From IMG/VR virus record IMGVR_UViG_3300042319_001471, positions 62,001 to 126,000 of that record: 64,000 bases of DNA; one strand, given 5' to 3'. Shown here piece after piece: positions 1,846 to 64,000 of this stretch. Origin of the DNA: a virus. The notes below the pieces were generated by a model that was given only the letters and a program-made list of their open reading frames with translations, was not told the DNA's origin and did not search any database. Made by a program: the position numbers and the translations under genes. How positions within the stretch are numbered: position 1 is the first letter of the stretch; every line of letters begins with the position of its first letter.

Positions 1846-2763
1846 ATGAGACGAATAATTTATAAAAATTTAAAAGGTCAAAATTTCCTCAGTGTGGGAA
1901 ATGACCAAATATCGGTTGACTTCCAATCAGGATTTAATCTGATCACTGGTAGGAATATTGATAATCCAGATCGTGTGAACGGTATTGGAAAATCAGTTAT
2001 GGCCGAACTTTTCTATTTCGCATTATTCGGTAAAACCATCCGTGAAATTAAAAAGGATTTCATCATCAACAACATCACCAAAGGAAAGGGTGCCATTGAG
2101 CTTACGTTCGACGTAGAGACGGAGCAAGACGTTCAGACATACACGATAAAGCGGCAAGTCAAACCAAGCACTGTGACGCTTCTGAGATGCGAGGAAGACA
2201 TCACCAAGGATTCCATTGCCAACACCGACAAATTCATCTGTGATTTGATCGGTTCCAATCCTGTGATTTGTCGTAGTTGTGATATTTTATCTCTTTCGGA
2301 TAACATCCCATTCATGGCAAAGAAACCTGAAGAGAAGCGCAAGTTCATCAATGACATTTTCTCTCTGGAAGTCTTTGGTAAGATGAGCAACGAATTGAAG
2401 ACTTTGATTCGTGATAATAAAGGGGAGATGAACATTTCTTCTGCCAAGTTGGAAGAAATCAATAACACATTGGAAACCCTAAACAAGCAGCAAGAAGATT
2501 ATTTGAAGAAAGTCCAAGAGCGGGAAGCGATTCTTGATCAAAAGCGCAAAGAAATTCAGGAAAAGATTGATGAAACATCTGAAAAGATTGCTAAAACATC
2601 TATTATGGATATTTCTACCATCCAAACGGAGAAAGAGAAGTGGGATGATGCTTGGAGAAAGCTGGATGGAAAGATCGGTCATGTGAATAACGAAATCTCT
2701 TCCAAGGAGACTTTGAGGAAGCTGAAGGTGAAAGAAATTGAACAAATTGAGAAAGTGATATGA
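1846..2763 (+). CDS. 46: gp46-like (SbcC/Rad50) N-terminal half
   Basis: N-terminal ATPase lobe plus first coiled-coil arm of the gp46 recombination exonuclease subunit. Walker A is NGIGKS (about residues 45-50), preceded by GRN and a small insertion; the Q-loop/lobe II region (KPEEKRKFINDIFSL) follows, and from about residue 200 the sequence is a long coiled coil. The ORF stops after KVI, just where the zinc-hook cysteines would come; the hook and second half are in a separate gene at 3061. The two parts total 595 residues, close to an undivided gp46. The stop overlaps the next ATG (ATGA), so translation is coupled. SF-type nuclease partner gp47 is upstream. Confidence 0.85.
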   Translation: MRRIIYKNLKGQNFLSVGNDQISVDFQSGFNLITGRNIDNPDRVNGIGKSVMAELFYFALFGKTIREIKKDFIINNITKGKGAIELTFDVETEQDVQTYTIKRQVKPSTVTLLRCEEDITKDSIANTDKFICDLIGSNPVICRSCDILSLSDNIPFMAKKPEEKRKFINDIFSLEVFGKMSNELKTLIRDNKGEMNISSAKLEEINNTLETLNKQQEDYLKKVQEREAILDQKRKEIQEKIDETSEKIAKTSIMDISTIQTEKEKWDDAWRKLDGKIGHVNNEISSKETLRKLKVKEIEQIEKVI

Positions 2764-3068
2764 AAAAACAACCAATATTCGTTATTGAAAAAAGTAGGGT
2801 TGAACACTGGATAAACCATCAATCTCATTTTACACAAATTCCTTATTCATTGGATTGGGGTAAGTTGACATCTATTGAAGATTTTCTAAATGTTTTAGAT
2901 AATGAAAAATCTGATGGTGATTATATTAGAATGTCTAAATTATATGATTTGTTGAATAAATTTAAAACCTATAAATTGTTACCTAACGCTAATAGAATGA
3001 TTGATCGTGTTTTTGCTATATGCAAAACGGAGAGAAAAGATTTAAACGAAATTTTGAAAAATGATTAA
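2760..3068 (+). CDS. Unknown small gene inserted between the gp46 halves
   Basis: 102 residues, no homology recognised; no endonuclease, intein or intron motif is visible. Start overlaps the gp46-N stop (ATGA) and its stop overlaps the gp46-C start (ATGATTAA), so all three are translationally coupled. Base use is more AT-rich than the flanking gp46 pieces (runs such as TTTTAGATAATGAAAAATC), consistent with later acquisition. Predicted helical and basic. Could be a cargo or morphogenetic insert, or a remnant of a mobile endonuclease; function unknown. Confidence 0.7.
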   Translation: MKKQPIFVIEKSRVEHWINHQSHFTQIPYSLDWGKLTSIEDFLNVLDNEKSDGDYIRMSKLYDLLNKFKTYKLLPNANRMIDRVFAICKTERKDLNEILKND

Positions 3069-3933
3069 ATGTGACAAGTGCCTTCAAGAAATTCCCCATA
3101 CACATGTGGAACATCTGGAGAAAATGAAGGAGCAATATCAATCCGAATTGGATAATATTGTTGAGGAAATTGATAAATTGAAGGAAGATAAATCCCAATT
3201 TCATTCCAAAAAAGAAAAGGTTCAACAAAAGGTAGCTGAATTTCAAGACCAAATCAACGAAGCTAAAGTCACCAAGCAGAAATTGGAAGGTCTGGAAATT
3301 AGTCTCAAACAATACAAGGAATCTCTGGATAATTTGAAGTTGGATGAATTACCCAAACCAGCTTTTGAGGAGAATATCATCAAGACGCAGGAGAGATATG
3401 ACACGGAACGTGATAATTTCCTATTGCTCAAGCAGAAATCGGAAGATTATGAGGTGTGTAAATTCGTTCTGGGAGAAGAAGGTGTCCGTAGCTTTGTGGT
3501 GAAGAGACTCCTTTCCATGATGAACGCAAGTATCCAGCAATATATTAATGATCTTGGTATGTCCATTCGTTGTAAATTCGATGAATACTTTGATGAACAG
3601 CTTTCCAATGACAAGGGCAAGGAAATTTCTTACTGGAATCTGAGCGGTGGAGAACGCAGAACTGTCGATCTCGCGTGTGCATGGGCATTCAAGGATTTGA
3701 AAAGGAAGATTTCAGGAGTGTCATCTAACGTGGAATGGATAGATGAGGTTTTTGACGCGGCGTTTGATGAGAGGGGGTTTGATTTATTGGTAGAACTCGT
3801 CAAAAAAAGAATTGAAAAGAACGATTTGGCTGTTTATGCAATTTCCCATAGAAAGGAAATATTGAAACAAGTCACGGGATCAATTATTGAACTTGAAAAA
3901 GAAGGTGGGATTACTAGAAGAATAAACAATTGA
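3061..3933 (+). CDS. 46: gp46-like (SbcC/Rad50) zinc hook and C-terminal half
   Basis: Starts MIKCDKC, so the CxxC zinc hook is at residues 4-7, followed by the second coiled-coil arm (to about residue 140) and the C-terminal ATPase lobe. ABC signature LSGGE (about residues 197-201), Walker B/D-loop segment WIDEVFD (about 225) and the H-loop SHR (about 262) are all present. The N-terminal lobe is encoded at 1846-2763. The split is at the hook apex, so two chains could still pair along the coiled coil to rebuild a functional gp46. A late-type promoter follows at 3940. Confidence 0.85.
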   Translation: MIKCDKCLQEIPHTHVEHLEKMKEQYQSELDNIVEEIDKLKEDKSQFHSKKEKVQQKVAEFQDQINEAKVTKQKLEGLEISLKQYKESLDNLKLDELPKPAFEENIIKTQERYDTERDNFLLLKQKSEDYEVCKFVLGEEGVRSFVVKRLLSMMNASIQQYINDLGMSIRCKFDEYFDEQLSNDKGKEISYWNLSGGERRTVDLACAWAFKDLKRKISGVSSNVEWIDEVFDAAFDERGFDLLVELVKKRIEKNDLAVYAISHRKEILKQVTGSIIELEKEGGITRRINN

Positions 3934-5155: not shown

Positions 5156-5815
5156 ATGAAAAAAGATGATAAAATTTTGGGAATTATTTACGAGTCTATC
5201 AGATTTGGCGATATCGTTCTGATTGATGAACCCGATTTTGGATGGGACGGGATATTTGAATCTATCCCCCACAATGATTTATTCCTTCTGGAATCATTTG
5301 AGAAAATCAAAGACAAAGAACCGTTTGATGACGGCGTTTTTGATGCGTATGAGATTGAATTGAAAAATGGTCAGAAATTCCAAGTAACTTTGAGCTACAA
5401 CAATGCCAAGCGTATCCGCGATATTTCAAACAAAGCTTCCCTTGAAGCGGAACACAAGAATCAGATGGAAATTGTTTCAGGATATGAACCATTTTTAAAT
5501 ATCCAAGATGGAGAATATGTGATGATGGTTGAGTTCAAGGATTCCAGTGGGCGACATGATGACACTGGAAATGTGGGAATCCATGCCTTGGAATTGTTTG
5601 AGATGTTGAAACAATCATTCATCCACAGTGTTCAAGGTGGATTCGCGGACAAGTTGGTTGGTATCATGATGAGAGTTGATAAGAACAATCCAAGACGGAT
5701 GAATTTCTATAAAACATTGCTGAAACGACATATCAGCAAGGACTTCCCGAACATTTTTGTCGATCCCAATACAAACAGTGCAAGGGGATATGATTTATTG
5801 GTTGCTACCAAGTGA
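5156..5815 (+). CDS. Hypothetical protein
   Basis: 219 residues, no family recognised. Two apparent parts: an N-terminal strand-rich acidic domain and a C-terminal alpha/beta part (EYVMMVEFKDSSGRHDD, then helix). Starts 2 bp after the glycosyltransferase in the context TTAATTATG and ends 34 bp before the polymerase start. Soluble, no signal or membrane segment. Confidence 0.65.
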   Translation: MKKDDKILGIIYESIRFGDIVLIDEPDFGWDGIFESIPHNDLFLLESFEKIKDKEPFDDGVFDAYEIELKNGQKFQVTLSYNNAKRIRDISNKASLEAEHKNQMEIVSGYEPFLNIQDGEYVMMVEFKDSSGRHDDTGNVGIHALELFEMLKQSFIHSVQGGFADKLVGIMMRVDKNNPRRMNFYKTLLKRHISKDFPNIFVDPNTNSARGYDLLVATK

Positions 5816-8857: not shown

Positions 8858-9105
8858 CACCCCAAGACGCTTATTTGAAAGGATTGACGGACGCAGAAAA
8901 CCGAATCATTGACAACCTGATCAACCTTCTGAACGATCCCAATCATGACGTTCCTTTTCCCAATCCCAAGTTGGAGATCGTAAGACACATTATTAAAGAT
9001 CGTTGTGATTATTATCATGATTTAGCCAAGCGTAATAATAACATGGGTAAGTCTTTTAAGAAAAAATTGAAAGAACAGAAAGAATACCTTGAAAAAACCA
9101 GATAA
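8854..9105 (+). CDS. Hypothetical helical protein
   Basis: 83 residues; starts with the ATGA overlap. Helical and basic at the C-terminus (SFKKKLKEQKEYLEKTR). No family recognised. Part of a coupled run of small genes after gp43. Confidence 0.6.
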   Translation: MTPQDAYLKGLTDAENRIIDNLINLLNDPNHDVPFPNPKLEIVRHIIKDRCDYYHDLAKRNNNMGKSFKKKLKEQKEYLEKTR

Positions 9106-9121
9106 TGAGGTAAGTTAATAC

Positions 9122-9502
9122 ATGACAGCAACATACAAAACAATTATGGATAAAGAAAAACACGTAGTAATCATCGACCAAATTGGACGCAACATCATCG
9201 GCAATTTGGTGAGAGAAACCGATACCACCCTGACACTCCACAATCCAGTTATTGTGTTTGTCCAGCCCGAACAAAGTGGACAGATTCAAGTTCAGAGCTT
9301 CCCTGTATTCTTCTTCGAATTTATCAACAAGGAATTCCGTGGACAAAACAATTGGACTTATCAAAAGGCTAATATCACTACAAGTGATGTCGTTCTGGAT
9401 GAGAGGATTCTTGCCCAATACGAAAAGATCAACACCCCTCCGCTGGAACCGCAAGTTATTTCAAGTGCATCTCCCAAGGTTGTAAGCATTAACTCTCTGT
9501 AA
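9122..9502 (+). CDS. Sm/LSm-like small phage protein
   Basis: 126 residues. The pattern VVIIDQIGRNIIGNLVRE followed by TLTLHNPVIVFVQP and a hydrophobic FPVFFFEF strand has the strand order and polar/Gly placement of an Sm fold and resembles a conserved small phage family known to me from other large phages. An RNA- or nucleic-acid-binding role would be inference. It ends at the ATG of the next small gene, a pairing also common in related phages. Confidence 0.5.
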   Translation: MTATYKTIMDKEKHVVIIDQIGRNIIGNLVRETDTTLTLHNPVIVFVQPEQSGQIQVQSFPVFFFEFINKEFRGQNNWTYQKANITTSDVVLDERILAQYEKINTPPLEPQVISSASPKVVSINSL

Positions 9503-9705
9503 TGTCTCCCGAATCGTTCACATATTGGCTACAAGGCTATTTTGAAATCTCCGATAGCAATAATCTGAGTCCCCAACAGGTTCAGATCATTCGGGATCAT
9601 TTGGCTCTGGTGTTTGAAAAGGTTACTCCTGATAGATCGGGACATGAATTGTTGGACACCGAATTTACGGGAGTAACATCCAAGCCATTAGGTGGGATTG
9701 ATTGA
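9502..9705 (+). CDS. Conserved small phage protein
   Basis: 67 residues with an N-terminal FTYWLQGYFEIS segment and the helix SPQQVQIIRDHLALVF; this core recurs in many large phages as a small protein of unknown function. Starts at the stop of the Sm-like gene (TAATG). No catalytic motif. Ends 45 bp before uvsX. Confidence 0.65.
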   Translation: MSPESFTYWLQGYFEISDSNNLSPQQVQIIRDHLALVFEKVTPDRSGHELLDTEFTGVTSKPLGGID

Positions 9706-9750
9706 ACAAAGATCAGAACACCCAAAGAAGAAACAAGATACTGTTAAATT

Positions 9751-10875
9751 ATGAGCAAAGATATTGATAAAGAATTATTCGCTTCTTTGAAAGCGTTGGA
9801 TGATGTGGTGCCGTATTCGGCATTCCTAAGTGAATCCACCCTATCATCGGTTGATGATTGGATTGACACGGGAAGTATGGTGCTAAATGCCCTGATTTCC
9901 GGTTCGTTGTATGGTGGTATTCCAAATGGAAGAATTACACAATTTGCAGGACCATCAGGTGCCTTCAAAACTGGCGTTGTTCTAAACATCATGGCAAATG
10001 CCCAAAAGAAAGGGCTAATTCCCGTCATCTTCGATACCGAAGGTGCCATTGATCCTGAGTCCGCTGCCAAATTCGGTTTGGATATTTCAAAAGTAAAGTA
10101 TGTGGGTTGTGAATCGGTTGAACAAACCAGAAACGCCATTCACAAGTTCCTTACTAATGTAAGAGAGAAGAAGCAATTCGGTAAATTCATTATCGTGATT
10201 GATTCTCTTGCCAACTTAAATTCTGAGATGGAACTGTCGAGAATGGATAAGGATTCCATGTCAGCAGACATGGGAACATTTGCTAAGTCGATCAAGAGTC
10301 TTCTCAAGCGTTGCACGAACATGTCAACTCTCACCAAGACTCCTATCGTCATCACCAATCATGTGTATGATGATCCAAGTGCTATGTATCCTTCTCTAGA
10401 GAAGAACATGCCGGGAGGTAAGGCTGCGGTGTATCTTCCATCCGTGACAGTTCAGCTTGCACGAAAGCTTGTCAAGGATTCGGAGAATAAGCAAGTTAGT
10501 GATAAGTTATCTGCTTCCCAAAAGAACTATTCTGGTGTTGTGATTCGCGCTCTAACTGTTAAGAATCGCTTCATCAAGCAATATCTGGAGGGAGAATTTT
10601 ATCTCTCCTTTAGCAAGGGTATTGACAAGTATTTTGGTCTTCTGGAAATCATGAAGGGTATGGGAGTTGTTAGTAATTCTGGCTCATCATATACCGATTG
10701 GGAAGGAAATAAGCTTGGTTATTATAAATCATTCTCCAAGAATATTGATCTTTGGGAACACAAATTGCTACCCGAACTTGAGAAGCGCATCAAAATCCAT
10801 TGGGCGTATGGTTCTTCTCCTGAAGATGATGATCTGGTGGCATTGGAAGAGGATGATGAATTAGATGCAGATTGA
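9751..10875 (+). CDS. uvsX: UvsX RecA-like recombinase
   Basis: 374 residues. Catalyses strand exchange for recombination and recombination-dependent replication on ssDNA held with gp32. Walker A is AGPSGAFKTG (residues 66-75), the catalytic Glu region is IFDTEGAIDP (about 94) and Walker B FIIVIDSLANL (about 147). An acidic C-terminus (DDDLVALEEDDELDAD) is typical. ATG lies in TTAAATTATG context. The 3' end overlaps the methyltransferase start by 11 bp. Confidence 0.92.
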   Translation: MSKDIDKELFASLKALDDVVPYSAFLSESTLSSVDDWIDTGSMVLNALISGSLYGGIPNGRITQFAGPSGAFKTGVVLNIMANAQKKGLIPVIFDTEGAIDPESAAKFGLDISKVKYVGCESVEQTRNAIHKFLTNVREKKQFGKFIIVIDSLANLNSEMELSRMDKDSMSADMGTFAKSIKSLLKRCTNMSTLTKTPIVITNHVYDDPSAMYPSLEKNMPGGKAAVYLPSVTVQLARKLVKDSENKQVSDKLSASQKNYSGVVIRALTVKNRFIKQYLEGEFYLSFSKGIDKYFGLLEIMKGMGVVSNSGSSYTDWEGNKLGYYKSFSKNIDLWEHKLLPELEKRIKIHWAYGSSPEDDDLVALEEDDELDAD

Positions 10876-19398: not shown

Positions 19399-19520
19399 GC
19401 AATCCTTCATCTGCAATTATAGAAAGCGAGAGCGATCACTTATTCATTTGTTATTGTTCCTTCGTGAACCATCTCAAAGGTGAACTACCGATGGGCAAGA
19501 CCCAGCGGCTTCAGTCTTAG
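19395..19520 (+). pseudogene. Truncated copy of the gene at 20837
   Basis: 41 codons. Residues 4-33 (PSSAIIESESDHLFICYCSF and on) align with residues 4-33 of the intact 95-residue protein at 20837 (PSSNIIENEQNHLFLCYCTF). Similarity stops at about 19485, where the TnpB element begins; the rest reads into the element's end and hits TAG at 19518. So an ancestral tandem paralogue was cut by the insertion. Confidence 0.75.
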
Positions 19521-20702
19521 TCTATAAGACTTCTTTTTAGACGCTTCACAGACAGTAGTTTCGTCGCCATTGCTGGCAACCAGAGCTTCCATCTCCACAT
19601 CTGTAATCGCCAATCCCTGACGATGAATGTTTTTTGCGGCGTTGATGTCCCTGTCATGGTTCTCACCACACTTGGGACATATCCAACGCCTCACTGACAA
19701 AGGTAGCTTATCGATAATATAATCACACTTATGGCAGGTCTTGGAACTAGGATACCATCTATCAATCTTCCTAATCTCCTTACCATACCACTTGGCTTTA
19801 TATTCCAACATTGATATAAAAGAACTCCAAGAGCTATCTTGAATACTATAAGAAAGATTTACATTCTTAATCATGTTCTTAACAGCCAGAGATTCTAAAG
19901 AAATCATATCATACTCGTTAATCAAACGAGTGCTTAATTTGTGTTGGAAATCCTTCCGAGAATTGGTTATCTTCTCGTGGATTCTCGCTACTTTTTTTCT
20001 TTGTCTTTTGTATCTATTGCTACCTTTCGTTTTCCTACTTAAATGTTTTTGAGCTTTTGAAAGCTTTTGTTTTAAAGAATGATTGAATTTGGGATTTTTT
20101 ACTTTCTCCCCATCGCTTGTTACTATGAAATCTGTAATACCCAAGTCAATACCCAAAGTCTTACCAGTCTTTGGTTTAGATTTCTTGGGGACTTCACAAA
20201 GGATGGAAGCAAAATATTTATCGGTGGGCGTTTTGGAAATTGTTGCTGATTTGATTTTTCCTTCCAATTTACGATGGAGATGAATCGGTATTCCTTCTTT
20301 AAATTTATAAATTTGTAATTTATTATTATTTTTTATTTTAACTCCTTGGCAAACCCCAAATGATTGTTGGTTTGATTTCTTTTTAAATTTTGGAAATTTA
20401 GATTTCTTACGGAAAAAATTGCCATACGCAGTCTCAAGATTTTTTAAAGATTGTTGTAGTGTTTGTGAATTGACTTTTTTGAGCCATGAATATTCATCAG
20501 AGTCTTTTAATTTTTTAACACCAGAACAACAATAATTATAATTTAAAGTTTTGCCATTATTCAAATAATGATCTTGTTTCTCTTTTAGAAAATAATTATA
20601 AATAAATCGAGAGCATCCAAAATGCTTTGCTAGTAATTCCTTCTGAGAATCTAACGGATAGATTCTGAATTTGAAAGCTTGGTATGTAATTTCCTCTTCT
20701 AT
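19485..20702 (-). CDS. tnpB: TnpB RNA-guided endonuclease (IS200/IS605 OrfB)
   Basis: 405 codons from an ATA at 20702. The family N-terminus (YQAFKFRIYP) is only recovered by reading upstream of the first TTG (20564), and no ATG, GTG or TTG lies before it in frame. RuvC residues are intact: Asp in GIDLG (about 186), Glu in ISLESLAVK (about 270), Asp in HDRDINAA (about 352). Zinc ribbon CHKC (323-326) and CPKC (342-345) is present. A perfect late-promoter motif ends right at the ATA, in the place ATG occupies elsewhere, suggesting an ATG-to-ATA change or use of ATA. No tnpA is nearby. Confidence 0.88.
   Translation of the reverse strand: MEEEITYQAFKFRIYPLDSQKELLAKHFGCSRFIYNYFLKEKQDHYLNNGKTLNYNYCCSGVKKLKDSDEYSWLKKVNSQTLQQSLKNLETAYGNFFRKKSKFPKFKKKSNQQSFGVCQGVKIKNNNKLQIYKFKEGIPIHLHRKLEGKIKSATISKTPTDKYFASILCEVPKKSKPKTGKTLGIDLGITDFIVTSDGEKVKNPKFNHSLKQKLSKAQKHLSRKTKGSNRYKRQRKKVARIHEKITNSRKDFQHKLSTRLINEYDMISLESLAVKNMIKNVNLSYSIQDSSWSSFISMLEYKAKWYGKEIRKIDRWYPSSKTCHKCDYIIDKLPLSVRRWICPKCGENHDRDINAAKNIHRQGLAITDVEMEALVASNGDETTVCEASKKKSYRLRLKPLGLAHR
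19488..19508 (-). repeat. Right-end hairpin of the TnpB element
   Basis: CCG-A-TGGG-CAAGA-CCCA-G-CGG: a 7-bp imperfect hairpin with one mismatch and a 5-nt loop, next to the insertion boundary and inside the 3' end of tnpB. This is where IS605-type ends and the omega-RNA scaffold lie. Confidence 0.6.
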
Positions 20703-57307: not shown

Positions 57308-58180
57308 ATGATAAAAAATGCTATTTTTCATATTGAGGGGGGGTTGGGTAAAAACATTGTAGCCACTTCGGTTATCCGTTCCTATAAAAAGGAACATCCA
57401 ATCCACAACATTATAGTAAATTCTGCATATCCTGACATTTTTCAAGGAAATCCTGATATTGATAGGTGTTATCTATTGGGAAATACTCCGTATTTTTATG
57501 AGGACTTTATCTTCGATAAAGATTGTGAAATATTTGCACATGATCCATATAAAACAACAAATCATATCACCAAACAACAACCTCTGGTGAAATCGTGGTG
57601 TGATATGATAGGGATTAATTACGATGGTTTAAATCCAAACATTTATTTTAATTTTAGGGAAGGGGAAATACCCAGAGCGTTACTACCTCAAACTGATAAA
57701 CCCATTCTCATCTTCCAACCATTTGGAGGCGCACAAAACCAAGAATTTCCATACTCATGGACAAGGGATATTCATCCTTTCATTGCTCAACAAATAATCA
57801 ATAATCTTAAAGAACAATATACGATATTGCATATTTGTCACCCCCACCATCCTCAATTACAAAATGTGATTCGCTATGATAAAAATCAAAATAAAAAGAT
57901 TTTATGTGCCATGTTGAATCTTTCTAAAAAAAGAATTCTAATCGACTCTTCTTTACAACATGCTGCGGCTGCCATGGGATTACCATCAACAGTGGTGTGG
58001 GTTGGGACACAACCGGAAGTATTTGGTTATGACATGCATAATAATATAACTCCCCCTGTTACCTTTCCAAAGGGTAATATTAATTCGTATTTATATGATT
58101 ATAGTTTCAATGGAATCATCCATGAATGCCCATATGATAATATTTATCAAATTTTCAATATCGAAAACATCATAAAATGA
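57308..58180 (+). CDS. Glycosyltransferase family 9-like (GT-B)
   Basis: 290 residues. IEGGLGKNIVATSVIRSYKKE (residues 8-28) is the GT9/heptosyltransferase-type N-terminal loop, PILIFQPFGGAQNQEF (about 133) the interdomain strand and acceptor loop, and LIDSSLQHAAAAMGLPSTVVWVG (about 215) the donor-binding site. Coupled to the sulfotransferase by ATGA overlap. A late-expressed glycan-building gene beside a fibre gene suggests virion glycosylation. Confidence 0.75.
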   Translation: MIKNAIFHIEGGLGKNIVATSVIRSYKKEHPIHNIIVNSAYPDIFQGNPDIDRCYLLGNTPYFYEDFIFDKDCEIFAHDPYKTTNHITKQQPLVKSWCDMIGINYDGLNPNIYFNFREGEIPRALLPQTDKPILIFQPFGGAQNQEFPYSWTRDIHPFIAQQIINNLKEQYTILHICHPHHPQLQNVIRYDKNQNKKILCAMLNLSKKRILIDSSLQHAAAAMGLPSTVVWVGTQPEVFGYDMHNNITPPVTFPKGNINSYLYDYSFNGIIHECPYDNIYQIFNIENIIK

Positions 58181-58968
58181 GAGATATATTTTATGTGTCT
58201 GGCTTACCCAGATCGGGAAGCACTCTTCTGATGAATCTGATGGCACAAAATCCTAAAGTATTCTGTACTCCTACATCGGGTTTGAATCAATTGATGAATA
58301 ATATCAAAACATCGTGGGGTAATATCATTGAACATCGATCTGATAAAAACGCTGGTAATGATGAAAATTTGAAGCGTATCCTCAACACTGTATTACATTC
58401 CTACCATAATACCGAAAAACCGTATGTCATCGACAAATGTAGGGGGTGGGGATTCTCCATTGAAATGTTGGAGGCAATCACCAATAAAAAAACCAAGATC
58501 ATAGCACCAGTTAGAGATATAAAGGATGTTCTTGCGTCTTTCGAATTATTATATCGAAAGGGTTCCTACAAGTTCAACCCCCAAGGACCAATGCCCCAAT
58601 GTTTAACAACTGAAGGTAGGATGATGCATTGGGCAAGTTTGGAGGGGGAAGTCGGTGCTGCTTACGCAATATTGAAGGATGCTTTTTTAAGAGGATTGGG
58701 GGATAGATTCCTTTTGGTGGATTATGATTACCTGACACATAATCCTAAAATTGTCATGGACGTAATTTGGGATTTCCTCAATATACCCAAATGTGAACAT
58801 GATTTTGAAAACATATTGAACCAAACACCAGAAGATGATGGTGTTTATAATTATGTCGATTTACATAAAATTAAGAGTAAAGTCACCCCATCCAGTTCAA
58901 AAGCTAAAGAAATTTTGGGGGATGAAATATGTAAAGGATTGGATGGTTATGAATTTTGGAAGAAATGA
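58177..58968 (+). CDS. Sulfotransferase
   Basis: 263 residues. GLPRSGSTLL (residues 9-18) is the 5'-phosphosulfate loop of PAPS-dependent sulfotransferases, and APVRDIKDVLASF (about 111-123) holds the 3'-phosphate-binding Arg. The Gly-rich late loop of the cytosolic type is not clear. Would transfer sulfate from PAPS to a hydroxyl, most simply on the glycan made by the coupled glycosyltransferase. Sulfotransferases are uncommon in T4-like phages. Confidence 0.85.
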   Translation: MRDIFYVSGLPRSGSTLLMNLMAQNPKVFCTPTSGLNQLMNNIKTSWGNIIEHRSDKNAGNDENLKRILNTVLHSYHNTEKPYVIDKCRGWGFSIEMLEAITNKKTKIIAPVRDIKDVLASFELLYRKGSYKFNPQGPMPQCLTTEGRMMHWASLEGEVGAAYAILKDAFLRGLGDRFLLVDYDYLTHNPKIVMDVIWDFLNIPKCEHDFENILNQTPEDDGVYNYVDLHKIKSKVTPSSSKAKEILGDEICKGLDGYEFWKK

Positions 58969-58980
58969 CTAAATAATGAT
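58969..58980 (+). promoter_or_regulatory. Late promoter before 58981
   Basis: CTAAATAATGAT abuts ATG 58981; it starts at the upstream stop codon. Confidence 0.65.
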
Positions 58981-59346
58981 ATGTCTATACTAGGTAATAA
59001 CACACTACCACCACCCCCGACACCCAATAAGGAAGTCCTATTGAAACAAGCGGTATCCCGTATCAAAAATCTTTCCAAGGAATGTTTCAGTAATTTGGTG
59101 AGAACCCAACGAGAAGGTATTGAGATTGTTTGGGAGGACGAAACCCTCACTCCGCAGGAAATAATTGATGAGATGGGGTCGGATGTTTTTAAGATTTTTC
59201 AATTCCATGGGGAGCTTACACAATTTATTCTGATGTTGGCCAAAGGGGATGGAGCAACGGTTGATGTCAAGTATCCCACCCACTCATTTACCGCAAACCT
59301 CAGTGCTGGAACTATCACCGTCCACGATACACTTTACCAACAATAA
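58981..59346 (+). CDS. Conserved phage structural protein, small
   Basis: 121 residues. Pro-rich start, then helix LLKQAVSRIKNLSKECFSNLVRTQREGIEIVWED and DEMGSDVFKIFQFHGELTQFI (about 55-80), a pattern I recall from unknown small proteins encoded near structural genes in several large phages. Late promoter adjacent. Confidence 0.6.
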   Translation: MSILGNNTLPPPPTPNKEVLLKQAVSRIKNLSKECFSNLVRTQREGIEIVWEDETLTPQEIIDEMGSDVFKIFQFHGELTQFILMLAKGDGATVDVKYPTHSFTANLSAGTITVHDTLYQQ

Positions 59347-59350
59347 TTAT

Positions 59351-60376
59351 ATGAAAAAACAACCGACATTGGGAGATATATATGGACAAATGCTGAACAG
59401 TGTTCAAGTCGTTCAAGAGAACGCACAGGAAAACATCAACAAGTCCAAAAAAATTCCCAAGCAATCCAAAAACGCTTTCAACGAAACAAATCCCTTGCAA
59501 AAAGGTGGTCCATCTGAGAAAAGCGGTTATCACAAAGCTTTGAATGATACTTATGATGAGGATGAAGAGCGTAAGTATGCTAATCTTGATAAACTTAAAG
59601 AAAAGTTGAAGAATCCCAATCTTTCTGATAAACAGAAGGAATCTCTTAAAAAAGAAATTGCAAGAATGGAGAGTGGAATCCAAAGAGAGGAAGCGGAAGA
59701 GAGAATTCACAAGGAATCTAAAAAAATTGCAAGAGATAGACTAAATACATTTATGACTAAGAAATCTACATTTGATAAGTTGTTTGAATCCGTTATGGGT
59801 AATAATTTTGACCAGCAAGAGGATGCTCAAGAAGTTGATGCCCTCGGCCTTGGTGATGCTCCCATGGACGATGAGTTTGGAGATGACGAATTCGGTGACG
59901 ATGAAGACCAAGTTACATTTACTCTTGATCGTGCCACAGCACAAAAGCTTCACGATGTTTTGATGGGAGTTCTTGATGGTGGTATGGAAGACGAAGGAGA
60001 TGATCTGGACTTTGATGAAGGCGATGATTTCGGAGGAGACGACGAAATGGATGAAGATAACGAAGAAGAAGATGATTTCTCTTATGACGAAGATGAAGAG
60101 CGCGGAACGTTTCCAACTGACAAGGTTGGTAATGACGGAACCGTAGGTGCCAAGGATGGCAAGGGTGGTGGTCAACAACACAAGCTCCAAGGTCGTAGCA
60201 ACAAGGTTAATGGCCGTCCCCAACCAAAAAACCAAAAAACCAAGGTAGTGGGAACCACTGATAAGGTTGGTAATGACGGTGATTATGGTCACGCTCTCCA
60301 CGGTGCAAAGCAACCTGATATGGGCAAGCAGAACAAAGTTTCGGATATTAGACAGGCAGAAGATTTCTTCCGCTAA
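59351..60376 (+). CDS. Acidic head/core-like protein with internal start
   Basis: 341 residues from ATG 59351 (frame open from 59249). Residues 1-130 are basic helical (coiled-coil LKEKLKNPNLSDKQKESLKKE). At codon 135 an ATG follows directly on an internal late promoter, so a shorter product (59753-60376) is likely. The C-terminal half is extremely acidic (EDNEEEDDFSYDEDEERG), then Gly/Lys/Gln-rich repeats (DKVGNDG twice). Resembles acidic prohead-core or internal proteins; exact function unknown. Confidence 0.65.
   Translation: MKKQPTLGDIYGQMLNSVQVVQENAQENINKSKKIPKQSKNAFNETNPLQKGGPSEKSGYHKALNDTYDEDEERKYANLDKLKEKLKNPNLSDKQKESLKKEIARMESGIQREEAEERIHKESKKIARDRLNTFMTKKSTFDKLFESVMGNNFDQQEDAQEVDALGLGDAPMDDEFGDDEFGDDEDQVTFTLDRATAQKLHDVLMGVLDGGMEDEGDDLDFDEGDDFGGDDEMDEDNEEEDDFSYDEDEERGTFPTDKVGNDGTVGAKDGKGGGQQHKLQGRSNKVNGRPQPKNQKTKVVGTTDKVGNDGDYGHALHGAKQPDMGKQNKVSDIRQAEDFFR
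59741..59752 (+). promoter_or_regulatory. Internal late promoter
   Basis: CTAAATACATTT lies inside the 59351 ORF and abuts an in-frame ATG at 59753. Confidence 0.6.
59753..60376 (+). CDS. Internal product of the acidic head/core-like gene
   Basis: 207 residues starting MTKKSTFDKLFESVMGNNF, an amphipathic helix with an LFE-S prohead-protease-like site. The start directly follows a late motif within the larger frame. It would lack the basic N-terminal half of the long form, much like nested genes in phage scaffold modules. Existence is inferred from promoter and N-terminal signal together. Confidence 0.55.
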   Translation: MTKKSTFDKLFESVMGNNFDQQEDAQEVDALGLGDAPMDDEFGDDEFGDDEDQVTFTLDRATAQKLHDVLMGVLDGGMEDEGDDLDFDEGDDFGGDDEMDEDNEEEDDFSYDEDEERGTFPTDKVGNDGTVGAKDGKGGGQQHKLQGRSNKVNGRPQPKNQKTKVVGTTDKVGNDGDYGHALHGAKQPDMGKQNKVSDIRQAEDFFR

Positions 60377-60401
60377 TATGAATTAAAAAAATAAACCTAA
60401 G

Positions 60402-60433
60402 AAGAGGGGATCGTGATGATTCCCTCTTTTTTT
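60402..60433 (+). terminator. Rho-independent terminator
   Basis: AAGAGGGGA pairs with TTCCCTCTT (one wobble) over a 10-nt loop and is followed by a run of T, after the acidic gene. Confidence 0.85.
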
Positions 60434-60446
60434 GTTAAGTATTAGC
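60434..60446 (+). promoter_or_regulatory. Late-type promoter, GTTAAGTATTAGC
   Basis: Same variant as at 28387; abuts ATG 60447 immediately after the terminator. Confidence 0.5.
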
Positions 60447-60803
60447 ATGAAGTCCTTTCTGGAATTTTTCGAAGAGCGCAATGGTGTGATACTTGAGTAT
60501 CGACACAAGGATGGATTTGGTGACATTAAGCAATCCCTCCACGCCAATAATAAGAAGGGGGGTAATATTACCCGCGATCCCCTGACAAGAAAGATACCAT
60601 GGAACAAAGGACCGTATAAGAAGATCAGAACAGCAGGAGAGATTCTGATTGGGGATGATCTGTTAAAGGAATTGGGACAACTCAATGGTGTGGAATTTAA
60701 AGATGGTAAAGAGATCAAAAGAAAAAACAGTAATCAAATCCTAAAGCTGTTCACCAATCTCCATGGTCAACAATGTGGTAAAATCGTAGAAGTTAAAAAA
60801 TAA
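60447..60803 (+). CDS. Basic late protein with CTS-like start
   Basis: 118 residues from ATG 60447. MKSFLEFFEERNG is an amphipathic helix with an FEE/LEF cleavage-like site. The rest is Lys-rich (DPLTRKIPWNKGPYKKIRTAGE) with no known fold. The stop abuts the neck-protein start (TAATG). Probably a packaged or head-assembly protein. Confidence 0.6.
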   Translation: MKSFLEFFEERNGVILEYRHKDGFGDIKQSLHANNKKGGNITRDPLTRKIPWNKGPYKKIRTAGEILIGDDLLKELGQLNGVEFKDGKEIKRKNSNQILKLFTNLHGQQCGKIVEVKK

Positions 60804-61711
60804 TGGGTTGTCCAACAATTCCACTTTCCTGTCTCACTCCTGAAAACATCTTTGCTGGTGTTTATCGCCCCAATTGCGGGGGATTTGCCGATCCTTCCAA
60901 TTTCAAGGCTGAAAGAGCCATATTCAATTCCCAATTTGGGGAGCTTATCAATAATTATGGGGTGGAGATTGATTATTATGTGAACACCTTCAACCCAAAG
61001 GCAATGAACTCCATCTATGGGGAACACACTCTCATGTATTGGCTCGGTCCAACAGTTATCAAAGCATATATCCAGATGGAGAATGCCTCCCCAATTTATG
61101 CTCTGGCTGGTATGGATTCCCCCGATACTTTGACACTCTATTTACATATTGATGATTTTAATGTCAAATTTGCTGGACTTAGCGTATTTGATGGTGTTTT
61201 AAGAGATGAAAACAATAATCCCATATTAACGGAAGCAGGGGAGCAAATTATTATTGATCAGGAAAATGGTCCATGGGCTTGCGAACCCAAATCACAGGAT
61301 AAGATCAGGGTGACACCATTTGGATGTGATAGGCCGAATGGCAGGGGAGCCAAGATATTTGAGGTTACGGAAGCTCTGGATGAAGATGCCGCTGAACTCA
61401 ATCCTGCAATGGGTCATTATGTTTGGAGATTGAAAGCTGTTCGTAGTGAGCATAACTTCACCACCAATGAACCAAGGGAAAATATGAATCATCAAATTGC
61501 TGATAATTCTTTCTTCGGTAAGCTGTCTTCCACGATGTTCCCAGAATTGACGGGAATGTATCCGGGTCTTTCGGCAGCATTTTTGTCGCTATCTTCTGTT
61601 CTGGATGATAACAAGATATACACCGAAAGTTCCGATGAAATCGTGCAAAGGGATGTGTTTCCTCCATCCACGGGAGGTAGTGATGGTAGTGTATATGGGA
61701 ATTATTTCTAA
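60803..61711 (+). CDS. 14: Neck protein gp14-like
   Basis: 302 residues. The pattern ELINNYGVEIDYYVNTFNPKAMNSIYGEHTLMYW (about residues 46-80), with later RGAKIFEVTEALDEDAAELNPAMGHYVWRLKAVRSEHNF, matches the YG-V-YY...D-IYGE and ALFYQ-like layout of T4-type gp14 head-completion/neck proteins. Its place just before terminase (T4 order 13-14-15-16-17) supports this. It would close the filled head and join the tail. Longer than T4 gp14 (256). Confidence 0.6.
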   Translation: MGCPTIPLSCLTPENIFAGVYRPNCGGFADPSNFKAERAIFNSQFGELINNYGVEIDYYVNTFNPKAMNSIYGEHTLMYWLGPTVIKAYIQMENASPIYALAGMDSPDTLTLYLHIDDFNVKFAGLSVFDGVLRDENNNPILTEAGEQIIIDQENGPWACEPKSQDKIRVTPFGCDRPNGRGAKIFEVTEALDEDAAELNPAMGHYVWRLKAVRSEHNFTTNEPRENMNHQIADNSFFGKLSSTMFPELTGMYPGLSAAFLSLSSVLDDNKIYTESSDEIVQRDVFPPSTGGSDGSVYGNYF

Positions 61712-61720
61712 ATAGGTAAT
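61708..61720 (+). promoter_or_regulatory. Late promoter before terminase N-part
   Basis: CTAAATAGGTAAT abuts ATG 61721 and overlaps the upstream stop. Confidence 0.6.
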
Positions 61721-62080
61721 ATGGGTAGGAAAAAAGATACATATATGGGCAATCCTAATTTGCCCACAGCTAGTGCTACATTCGAATATACACCAGAGAT
61801 GGTGGCTGAGATTGCCAAGTGTCGGGATGATATTTTATATTTTGCTGAAAATTATTTCTATATCATTGAGCCGGATTTAGGTAAGATTAAAATACCGTTG
61901 TTACCATATCAGAAGCGGTTGCTGAACGCATTTAGAGATAACAGATTTAATATTGTCAACTCATCTCGTCAATCGGGAAAATGTTTTGTTGGTGATACTA
62001 AAATAAAAATACGAAACAAAAAAACAGGTGAAATAGAAGAAGTTGAAGCTGAAAAGTTTTACAATTCTATTAAAAAATAG
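61721..62080 (+). CDS. 17: Terminase large subunit gp17 N-part fused to N-intein
   Basis: 119 residues. Residues 1-87 are the gp17 N-terminus, ending LPYQKRLLNAF and NIVNSSRQSGK, that is, half of Walker A. The next 32 residues (CFVGDTKIKIRNKKTGEIEE to stop) are an intein N-terminal piece: Cys1 and a block-A-like CFVGDT start. The stop follows TnpB-unrelated sequence, and the C-intein is at 63362. Trans-splicing would rejoin SRQSGK with TTCLTIL to restore the ATPase. The short N-piece is of the atypical kind described for the AceL-TerL intein, also in a terminase. Confidence 0.9.
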   Translation: MGRKKDTYMGNPNLPTASATFEYTPEMVAEIAKCRDDILYFAENYFYIIEPDLGKIKIPLLPYQKRLLNAFRDNRFNIVNSSRQSGKCFVGDTKIKIRNKKTGEIEEVEAEKFYNSIKK

Positions 62081-62101
62081 ACAAATATCTAAGCGATTAG
62101 A

Positions 62102-62113
62102 CTAAATATATAC
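62102..62113 (+). promoter_or_regulatory. Late promoter before the endonuclease
   Basis: CTAAATATATAC abuts ATG 62114, so the endonuclease gene is transcribed independently of terminase. Confidence 0.6.
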
Positions 62114-63361
62114 ATGACGAACAAAACATGTATAATTACTGGAAAATTATTGTCAGATGGAAAAAAGTGGAAGGGTTGTCATAGTAGAACCTTGTTTTTT
62201 ATATATAAAGATAATAAATTTGATTTAGAAAAAACTAAAGAAGATGTTGAAAATAACTTGATATATATTGACGAGTATGATGAATATTATTCTTGTTGGA
62301 GAGCAGCATCCAGATCATTGGGAATGAGATACAATCTGAGTGAAGTTGATAAAATATCTCTCTATGAAAAATATTTTAAACCGAATAGTAAATGTAAAAA
62401 ACATGATTGTAATAATCAAGTTCCTTATGATTTTTTGAAGTATAATACTTGTTGTTTGTTGCATTATAATCAAAATTTGAAAAGTTTAAAATTAAAAGAT
62501 TTTAAATACACCTGTTTAGAAGATGGGAATACATTCACAAGAATAAATCGCTTGACTAGACACCTCAAAGGTGTGCTAAACATCGATCCAGAAGATTATT
62601 ATAAAAAACATATTAAAAAATGTGATAGTGAGGGATTTTGTAAATGGTGTAAAACCCCAACACGATTTAAAAATGTGCGAGATGGATACGATAAATTTTG
62701 CTACAACACATCTTGTAATGTTTTGTGGTATAATAAACATGAAAATCGCGCTAAAAATTGCGCTGAAAAGATTAGAAAAACACATTTAATCGGGGATCGT
62801 TTACCATCTCAAGAGGGATATTGGTTAAAACGAGGACATACGCAAGAGGAGGCTTATAAAAAAGTTAGAGAAACACAAGCCACCAACGCTGTTGACTCTA
62901 TCATGGAAAGAAAGAAATGCTCATTGGAAGAAGCAGTTCAAATTAGAGCTGAAATAACCGATAAATGGTTGAAATCATTTAAGAGAATGAATTATTCAAT
63001 GATTTCACAGAAATTGTTTGTTGAGGTTTGGAAAAGAGTGAAAGATAAATATAAAAATATTTACTTCGCAACATTAAACAATGGAGAGATTGTCAACGAT
63101 GGTAAAAATCATGAGTTTAGGGTGAAAACATTTAGATCAAGTAGAAAAATAGATTTTTATATCAAAGATATTAATAAATGCATCGAATTTGACGGGACAT
63201 ATTGGCATGGGAAAAAAGGTAAAGGGGCTTCTGAAGAATTATTAAGGGAAAGTGAAATAATTGGAACGTTGGGGTGTAAAGTTTTACACGTTAAAGAAAA
63301 AGATTTCAATAATGATAATGAAAAAATCATAGAAGATTGTGTAAATTTTTTAAATAGTTAA
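62114..63361 (+). CDS. Free-standing homing-type endonuclease (Vsr-like)
   Basis: 415 residues between the two intein halves. Several Cys/His clusters (CKKHDCNNQ, CCLLH, CKWCKTPTRF, CYNTSC) suggest DNA-binding zinc fingers; GYWLKRGHTQEEAYKKVRETQ (about residue 236) is a repeat motif of phage homing endonucleases. The C-terminal nuclease domain has KIDFYI (about 355), then CIEFDGTYWHG (about 364), then GCKVLHVKEKDF (about 393), the Vsr/PD-(D/E)xK layout. Such enzymes occupy fractured phage genes and would spread the split-intein locus. More AT-rich than its neighbours. Confidence 0.85.
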   Translation: MTNKTCIITGKLLSDGKKWKGCHSRTLFFIYKDNKFDLEKTKEDVENNLIYIDEYDEYYSCWRAASRSLGMRYNLSEVDKISLYEKYFKPNSKCKKHDCNNQVPYDFLKYNTCCLLHYNQNLKSLKLKDFKYTCLEDGNTFTRINRLTRHLKGVLNIDPEDYYKKHIKKCDSEGFCKWCKTPTRFKNVRDGYDKFCYNTSCNVLWYNKHENRAKNCAEKIRKTHLIGDRLPSQEGYWLKRGHTQEEAYKKVRETQATNAVDSIMERKKCSLEEAVQIRAEITDKWLKSFKRMNYSMISQKLFVEVWKRVKDKYKNIYFATLNNGEIVNDGKNHEFRVKTFRSSRKIDFYIKDINKCIEFDGTYWHGKKGKGASEELLRESEIIGTLGCKVLHVKEKDFNNDNEKIIEDCVNFLNS

Positions 63362-64000
63362 ATGGGGAAGATAATAGAAACCATAGATTTAACTGATTAT
63401 GAAATCTGGACTGATTCTGGGTGGCACGACTTGACACATCTTCATAAGACAGTTGTATATGATGTGTGGATCATAACAACCGAAAATTTTCAATTAGAAT
63501 GTGCTGATGAACACATAATTTTTAAAAATTCTGATTATGAGGAAGTTTTTTGTGAGAACTTGAATATTGGTGATAATATTTGGACGGAAAACGGTCTTGA
63601 AGCGGTTTTATCAATTGTTAAGACTGATCGTAGCGAACATATGTATGATGCGACTGTGGATAGCGAAGATCATCGAATTTTCACTAACGGTATTTTAAGT
63701 CATAATACCACATGTCTAACCATATTAGCCCTACATGAGACTTGTTTTAAGGATTATAGAAACACTATAATCGTTGCCAACAAAGAAGACACCGCGAAAA
63801 TGATTTTCAAGCGTGTTAAATTAGCATATGAGGAATTGCCCAACTGGTTGAAACCCGGAGTTAAAACATGGGGTCAGGAAAGCACCGAATTTTCAAATGG
63901 TTCAACCATCGGGATTGCAACGACAAGTAGTTCAACTGCGAGAGGAAGCACTATTCAATGCCTCTTACTTGACGAATTGGCGTGGGTTGATCCCGATAGT
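63362..64000 (+). CDS. 17: C-intein fused to terminase gp17 ATPase (3' partial)
   Basis: The frame starts at ATG 63362, one base after the endonuclease stop, and runs off the window. Residues 1-115 are the intein C-piece: ECADEHII (block-B-like His), MYDATVDSEDHRIFTNG (block F) and the terminal SHN (block G); the next residue is Thr as +1. From residue 116 the terminase resumes with TTCLTILALHETCF, then TARGSTIQCLLLDELAWVDP, the Walker B region. Joined to 61721-62080 it gives RQSGK-TT, an intact P-loop of the packaging motor. Confidence 0.9.
   Translation, partial: MGKIIETIDLTDYEIWTDSGWHDLTHLHKTVVYDVWIITTENFQLECADEHIIFKNSDYEEVFCENLNIGDNIWTENGLEAVLSIVKTDRSEHMYDATVDSEDHRIFTNGILSHNTTCLTILALHETCFKDYRNTIIVANKEDTAKMIFKRVKLAYEELPNWLKPGVKTWGQESTEFSNGSTIGIATTSSSTARGSTIQCLLLDELAWVDPDS

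Follow-up and report, generated by a model that had tools for sequence, protein, structure and literature searches.

How could a phage obtain a whole packaging ATPase from a gene that is broken inside its own catalytic loop? This question is raised by a 64,000-nt stretch of viral DNA (the window; positions 62001-126000 of the IMG/VR record IMGVR_UViG_3300042319_001471, which has 177,639 b, is linear and may be incomplete), in which the terminase gene gp17 (TerL) reads directly as two open reading frames (ORFs) parted inside Walker A. The N-terminal ORF (61721-62080) encodes 87 amino acids (aa) of gp17 ending in SRQSGK and passes straight into 32 intein residues (CFVGDTKIKIRNKKTGEIEEVEAEKFYNSIKK) and a stop codon. 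The C-terminal ORF begins at 63362, 1,281 nt past that stop codon, with 115 intein residues ending in SHN followed by TTCLTIL of gp17; it continues past the end of the window and has 620 aa in the full record, of which 505 are gp17. An initial annotation made from the sequence alone had described both junctions, the distance of about 1.28 kb and an intein split at Walker A into a short N-piece and a long C-piece (32/115 aa), and the ORF reading bore all of this out, but a 415-aa ORF in the gap had been omitted. We conclude that the locus is very probably a fractured gene, made up of a split intein and a free-standing homing endonuclease gene: a conserved enzyme gene lies in two ORFs parted at one point, the intein halves (IntN and IntC) flank the break, and the ORF between them is a homing endonuclease gene by fold and profile.

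Both halves of gp17 match PHROG terminase families (phrog_5989, E = 4.4e-28 and 9.2e-22). The whole record holds a single PF03237 match, a single IntC match and a single match to the ORF between the halves; thus, a continuous gp17 elsewhere in the genome, which the initial annotation had named as evidence against its reading, was not found in this possibly incomplete record, and neither was a second gp17, IntC or endonuclease. Related loci (L numbers) were collected by alignment searches with the endonuclease (best 80 of 166) and with IntC (best 80 of 487, and 16 loci); together with other loci they make up 239 loci, so that the numbers given here are lower bounds and are biased to close relatives. 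They contain 108 distinct IntC sequences above the score cut, and 107 remained when L132 (Cys+1) was dropped. In eleven other IMG/VR contigs (L003-L013) the protein is 100% identical over the covered parts, with L011-L013 stopping within the middle ORF, and the diverged loci L014 and L021 retain all five pieces. In a map of 60 loci, 20 belong to the window's own record or to the L003-L013 contigs, 2 are the complete diverged loci and 6 are fragments that do not cover the site. The Walker A site is empty in 28, with the N-extein joined straight to the C-extein (TT... or like), and in five of these (L024, L039, L047, L059, L060) another TerL site is occupied by an intein instead; four further loci (L030, L032, L033, L053) carry a contiguous intein at the same Walker A site.

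The 415-aa ORF fills the gap, and its stop codon directly adjoins the start codon of the C-terminal ORF. With Pfam, sub-threshold matches alone were obtained (MTES_1575, E = 3.9e-4; Ros/MucR PF05443, E = 0.013; and DUF559), while the relatives in L192 and L152 both pass the DUF559 cut-off and the one in L192 also passes that of PF05443. A family profile built from 34 sequences, including that of the window, matches the catalytic domain of I-Bth0305I (3r3p, E = 8.9e-4) and Ros/C2H2 zinc fingers (Ros 2jsp, E = 7.4e-4). In the AlphaFold model (pLDDT 89.2), the C-terminal domain has the EDxHD-type nuclease fold of 3r3p (Z 10.5 over 94 residues) and also matches the endonuclease-like protein 3hrl (Z 10.5) and Vsr (1cw0, Z 9.2); phmmer with the nuclease domain alone returned designed barrels and other unrelated chains. 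Residues E334, D347, E358, H365 and E395 are invariant across the 34 family sequences and are candidates for the E-D-x-H-D catalytic residues. Among the 14 hand-chosen pairs from which all substitution values are taken, the ratio of nonsynonymous to synonymous substitutions (dN/dS) is defined for the endonuclease in 4 and amounts to 0.119-0.371 in these. From profiles and model, we read the ORF as encoding a putative homing endonuclease of the EDxHD/Vsr type that has DNA-binding parts resembling zinc fingers. In 58 of the 68 related loci measured, a Met codon that could start the IntC ORF is found between -30 and +10 nt from the endonuclease stop. As the three ORFs are arranged in reading order, with the IntC ORF beginning right at the stop codon of the endonuclease gene, translation of the two is likely coupled.

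IntC has the block B-like motif CADEH, the motif MYD and the C-terminal HN, and His51, His114 and Asn115 are invariant in 21 alignment rows. Judged by alignment, the residues of a class 1 intein are present, namely Cys1, the block B His (His51), the terminal His114-Asn115 and Thr+1. With a profile, the best match among solved inteins is VidaL (9.9e-13), followed by gp41-1 and the DnaX mini-intein, and the AceL/GOS consensus intein Cat (6dsl) gives 3.2e-6. Structure was predicted for L155, a natural relative with a contiguous intein, in place of the window's two halves joined; the IntC of L155 and that of the split locus L014 are 88% identical. The model (pLDDT 94.3) has an intein fold and matches VidaL with a Z of 22.2 and an rmsd of 1.4 over 136 residues. 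Its helix 23-29 ends just ahead of the stop point in the split relatives, which on this model puts the split of the window intein after the first helix, i.e. at position S2, the position given for the AceL-TerL and GOS-TerL inteins (PMC13014065; papers are cited by PMC number). The block of lowest confidence, residues 31-40 (mean pLDDT 59), lies at the split point.

Table 1. Parts of the gp17 locus in the window, and endonuclease genes that overlap the intein frame in relatives (in coordinates of those loci)
Feature	Location	Strand	Size or residues	Basis
gp17 (TerL) N-extein, ends SRQSGK (first part of Walker A)	61721..61981	+	87 aa	ORF reading, PHROG, empty-site loci
IntN, Cys1, plus stop codon	61982..62080	+	32 aa	ORF reading; IntN profile in related loci
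Putative free-standing homing endonuclease gene	62114..63361	+	415 aa	ORF, profile and model comparisons
Ros/C2H2 zinc-finger-like stretch of endonuclease	62504..62611	+	residues 131-166	PF05443 sub-threshold; family profile vs 2jsp
EDxHD/Vsr-type nuclease domain	62996..63358	+	residues 295-415	3r3p and 1cw0 structure matches; family profile; MTES_1575 sub-threshold
IntC, block B-like CADEH, C-terminal His114-Asn115	63362..63706	+	115 aa	ORF reading, sequence comparisons
gp17 C-extein, begins TTCLTIL, Thr+1	63707..64000, continuing beyond the window	+	505 aa in all	ORF reading
Overlapping endonuclease, L151/L152	3081-3992		912 nt	
Overlapping endonuclease, L192/L196	3156-3992		837 nt	
Overlapping endonuclease, L208 (also L204, L207)	2461-3237			

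Three alleles are found on nearly one backbone. L021 is split and has the endonuclease, L032/L033/L053 have a contiguous intein that starts with Ala (LAGLIDADG_3 is above the Pfam cut-off in L032), and L037 is empty. The extein DNA of L021 is identical to that of L037 at 260/261 positions upstream and 1466/1497 downstream, and to that of L032 at 260/261 and 1461/1497. Because nearly identical gp17 genes have this intein type, a LAGLIDADG intein or an empty site, the module of intein and endonuclease looks mobile. In several pairs it also looks younger than the host gene, as judged by synonymous divergence (dS): in L082/L088 the values are 0.18 for IntC, 0.26 for the endonuclease, 0.47 for the N-extein and 0.68 for the C-extein; in L087/L088 they are 0.54 for IntC, 0.40 for the endonuclease and 1.32 for the C-extein; and in L190/L210 they are 0.60 for IntC and 1.45 for the C-extein. 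Distances between endonucleases, between IntC sequences and between C-exteins all correlate with one another (r 0.40-0.46), a result that fits co-movement and shared descent alike. Several loci with a short gap between the halves still encode the final part of the endonuclease (by eye, most clearly L161 and L183, with shorter pieces in L186, L210, L224 and L228), the contiguous L155 sits in a clade of split, endonuclease-bearing loci (SH-aLRT 99), and the linker that contiguous homologues have at the split point is variable. The natural reading of these sequences is a cycle that would run through endonuclease gain, decay and fusion.

In the mechanism that we propose, an intein of class 1 type would lie between the Walker A lysine and threonine and would itself have been split after its first helix by the free-standing gene of an EDxHD (Vsr-like) homing endonuclease. 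The 32-aa IntN and the 115-aa IntC would bind each other and form the HINT domain fold, and splicing by means of Cys1, the His of block B, His114-Asn115 and Thr+1 would give SRQSGK-TTCL and with it a whole ATPase. We infer this splicing from the conserved residues, selection and the model of the contiguous relative, and it agrees with the view of the initial annotation that head assembly would depend on protein trans-splicing; gp17 would hardly be functional unless its halves are joined. The endonuclease would bind DNA by its zinc-finger-like and helical parts and cut intein-free gp17 alleles, and repair would then copy intein and endonuclease together, steps that the allele comparisons support. 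Upon decay of the endonuclease, the intein would either remain split or fuse back to one chain.

Other explanations of the broken gene have to be weighed. Two gp17 subunits created by the endonuclease insertion might assemble non-covalently without splicing, as is reported for a ribonucleotide reductase of a phage, the intein pieces being dead remains; a gene that an endonuclease has split and that is not spliced is indeed known (PMC10448857). Here the break lies within the P-loop, between Lys and Thr, which makes a non-covalent ATPase unlikely, and the idea of dead remains is contradicted both by purifying selection on IntC (dN/dS 0.052-0.226 in 14/14 pairs) and by the His-Asn that ends IntC in 106 of the 107 distinct relatives (L066 ends in Ser-Gln), so we regard this alternative as very improbable. 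Splicing might instead occur in the RNA if the 1.7-kb insert were an intron of group I or II that contains an endonuclease ORF, the intein-like reading being incidental; a review of group I intron endonucleases covers the EDxHD type among them (PMC3943268). This candidate was rejected, as having next to no chance of being right, since an Rfam search of 58000-64000 at E<=1 detected no intron, and its two sub-threshold matches both lie outside the insert. Moreover, the reading frame of the extein runs on into residues that are conserved in IntN and IntC, and other phages have homologous inteins that are contiguous and in frame. The metagenomic source and the linear, possibly incomplete record would also allow for a broken gp17 of a defective phage or for an assembly error. 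The eleven contigs with identical protein pieces and the presence of every part in L014 and L021 show that the break is neither an assembly slip nor chance; all five pieces are open in the diverged relatives and the C-extein is under purifying selection, which makes this explanation extremely improbable.

A closer question is whether the intein belongs to the AceL-TerL/GOS-TerL family, as the initial annotation had suggested. The likeness stands insofar as both have a TerL host, a short IntN and a long IntC, the S2 split position and pieces of similar size (32/115 against 25/104 and 37/115). Class membership was dropped and is improbable: the residue at +1 is Thr, whereas the AceL/GOS inteins use Cys+1 (table of PMC11766414); the insertion at the K/T bond of Walker A and the sequence family differ; and a Cat-like intein occupies another TerL site, before CEFLGS, where L108 has its second IntC, which gives 1.3e-15 against Cat. 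The comparison with the AceL/GOS consensus that had been proposed also went the other way, since by sequence alone Cat matches IntC at E = 0.0061 and VidaL, the best of the solved inteins, at 6e-5. VidaL (PDB 6vgv), which shares the Ala at the block B place, is split after strand 2 (S1) and has a 16-aa IntN (PMC13014065), as opposed to the 32-aa IntN and the split after helix 1 of the window intein, which is thus not of the VidaL type either.

Several observations weigh against the explanation by a trans-splicing intein and a homing endonuclease. Many inteins have a Thr in block B, and its place is taken by Ala here (CADEH), as it is in the aligned VidaL. PF14890 does not detect the gp17 intein in the record, with a weak match in the C-terminal ORF (E 0.024), and a PF14890 search consequently says little on other inteins in the record. 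IntN looks less constrained than IntC (dN/dS 0.12-1.02 in the 11/14 pairs where it is defined, with about 31 codons each). The endonuclease model has a pTM of 0.40, and Foldseek alone gave 3r3p at E = 0.0049 only. By eye, the DNA at the P-loop junction shows little beyond shared amino-acid demands, so that no endonuclease target was deduced from it, and no good Shine-Dalgarno sequence was seen ahead of the IntC ORF. Finally, the pair L167/L092 runs contrary to the horizontal pattern (dS 0.24 for IntC, 0.12 for the C-extein and 0.08 for the N-extein). With these points counted, we still hold with high confidence that gp17 was fractured by a homing endonuclease gene within an intein that would act by trans-splicing.

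In some relatives the endonuclease lies in a second reading frame (coordinates in Table 1). In the TerL loci L151/L152 and L192/L196, the frame of extein, IntN and IntC is open through an endonuclease gene in another frame. When the codons of the overlapping endonuclease gene were shuffled synonymously, the intein frame was open in 0/2000 shuffles of L151 (mean 17.7 stops), L192 (mean 15.5 stops) and L208 (mean 14.0 stops). L204, L207 and L208 are identical over the intein, and their overlapping gene is of another kind, with NUMOD3 above the cut-off and a weak HNH. The same open frame is seen in part in L191, L168 and L222, whose contigs start inside the endonuclease; as a control, 2 of 57 distinct endonuclease domains of at least 500 nt have such an open frame (L191 and L151). 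The last 100 aa of IntC in L194 are as in L191, and this locus has a short linker and no endonuclease; its C-extein DNA matches that of L192 at 1063/1290 positions. From these sequences, two kinds of endonuclease seem to be accommodated in the second frame of an unbroken intein, and both frames would be translated. This overlapping form could be a bridge between contiguous and split inteins and would then explain the odd split position.

The intein family extends to other P-loop ATPases. The host of the 107 inteins is TerL in 79, an SbcC-like protein in 16, a DnaB-like helicase in 9 and a clamp loader in 2, and one has no host label. The TerL profile confirmed 78 of the 79 TerL hosts (L115 has 9 aa of extein only); labels of the other hosts come from a motif rule, and for ten representatives (6 DnaB, 2 SbcC, 2 clamp loader) Pfam or PHROG bore out the label in every case. 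The +1 residue is Thr in 71/107 and Ser in 36/107. The N-junction was searched for with a profile of IntN residues 2-32, which sets no condition on residues -1 or 1, and was recovered in 73 of the 107 (34 were not recovered); it is K/C in 72 of these 73, counting 71 read as such and L124, which has the same junction read one residue off, while L068 is masked. With regard to configuration, 72 of the 107 are split with this endonuclease (the N half being off the contig in some), 3 are split with another or undetected ORF, 12 are split with a short gap, 12 are in one frame, 2 are in one frame with a long insert and 6 were not classed. L094, among the three with another ORF, does carry the endonuclease, and L168, counted as split, has the open intein frame through the endonuclease. 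The notion that all relatives are split was dropped, since 14/107 are in one frame.

A tree of the inteins was built from 72 of the 107 rows, with 46 of the 79 TerL rows hand-picked and L234, L068, L126, L212, L215 and L185 left out. The host label changes 10-11 times on it (minimum 3-4; shuffled mean 24-27). A single clade of all non-TerL inteins was rejected (p 0.0155, the group having been named after the first tree was seen), and single clades of the SbcC-hosted (p 0.27) and of the DnaB-hosted inteins (p 0.19) were not. The tree rests on 116 alignment columns and brings long branches together, and its starred branches make just 2 changes necessary for TerL and likewise for SbcC. The nearest or tied-nearest endonuclease domain is TerL-hosted for five of the six DnaB- or SbcC-hosted loci examined (L109, L180, L123, L213 and L131; not L124). 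On these comparisons we lean slightly towards the view that one intein family is a P-loop specialist that may have spread from the Walker A codons of one phage ATPase to those of others unrelated to it (terminase, SbcC/gp46-like nuclease, DnaB-like helicase and clamp loader), with the endonuclease carried in different ways, either as a free-standing gene by which the intein is split or in the second frame of an unbroken intein.

Parts of this arrangement have counterparts in known systems. I-Bth0305I (PDB 3r3p) and the window endonuclease have the nuclease fold and the phage context in common, but the former sits in what we take to be an intron and the latter between intein halves. As in the fractured genes of a 2009 study, an essential enzyme gene is combined with a split intein and a free-standing endonuclease gene between the halves, in our case of the EDxHD/I-Bth0305I type. 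The genes of that study are reportedly split near the usual endonuclease point, whereas in the window gp17 is broken inside Walker A and the intein after its first helix. For I-Bth0305I, a review places it among intron endonucleases (PMC3943268). The K/T site is a known 'classic' P-loop site, at which the TerL1-a inteins of mycobacteriophages are inserted between the Walker A Lys and Thr (PMC5050341); these belong to another terminase family, and the term 'split intein' does not occur in that paper. IntC matches were found in 310 of 50,697 phage records. The terL inteins of the Ackermannviridae phages Kuja, Menlow, VP-1 and LIMEstone and that of VPALA are at the same site and homologous but contiguous in all five translated records, with no endonuclease gene inside. 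In Delftia phage PhiW-14, TerL is split at the same K/T with no endonuclease gene between the halves; Agrobacterium phage Atu_ph07 resembles PhiW-14 but has Ser1; and in Campylobacter phage F379, which has an annotated endonuclease, the split comes some residues before this point. The available portions of the intein literature, including PMC11766414, PMC13014065, PMC12707363, PMC5050341, PMC10448857, PMC6892783, PMC7765530, PMC3943268, PMC5874633, PMC7090010 and PMC10343443, contained no description of an atypically split intein with this range of P-loop hosts, and none of an endonuclease in the second frame of an intein turned up there, although no search was aimed at the latter.

Further observations concern inteins of the same terminases. 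A second site of atypically split inteins in this TerL family lies just before Walker B (TIQ/C.../CLLLDE; L024 1165-2779, L047 2699-4321, L039 2380-4258). An endonuclease gene lies between the halves there, a phrog_314 homing endonuclease in L024 and similar by eye in L047, and in L039 an endonuclease-like stretch is fused to IntC. In L067 (Vibrio phage Va1, 1598-5015), at the C-NFLGS site, a nuclease domain of the family forms one continuous frame with the IntC and TerL C-extein that follow it, and the N half with IntN is the preceding ORF. The terminases of L081, L090, L083 and L086 have at least three inteins, with the P-loop split intein and others around Walker B and further on. By eye, IntN has an extra C-terminal helix-like stretch in L066, L104, L106, L112, L127, L143 and L245, and IntC has an extra hydrophobic N-terminal stretch in the same seven loci and in L110 and L136; these stretches could be docking helices that bring the halves together. 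Elsewhere in the window, an SbcC/gp46-like gene (1846-3933) is also divided between two ORFs, 1846-2763 and 3061-3933, each of which matches phrog_77; they are separated by a 102-aa ORF that has no match in PHROG, and there is a CxxC motif at the start of the second part. An ORF at 19485-20564 on the minus strand of this T4-like phage resembles IS200/IS605-type TnpB by eye. In L002, a 168-aa ORF directly after gp17 (5256-5762) is macro domain-like by eye, and an ORF at 9091-9852 with a GIY-YIG-like start by eye, downstream of a 798-aa ORF taken as the tail sheath gene, is probably a free-standing endonuclease.

The locus ties together two oddities that are known to us from separate publications, namely genes that are fractured and inteins whose split lies near the N-terminus. 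It offers a testable account of the odd split position, since the endonuclease gene sits where contiguous homologues have their variable linker, the related loci range over several stages in the loss of the endonuclease, and in some of them its gene occupies a second reading frame. One intein family is found at the same loop of four ATPase families, a source of split inteins with a short IntN and Thr or Ser at +1 for protein labelling, for which the cultured Delftia phage PhiW-14 can serve as a test system. For the phage itself, the packaging ATPase would depend on protein trans-splicing at its own catalytic loop.

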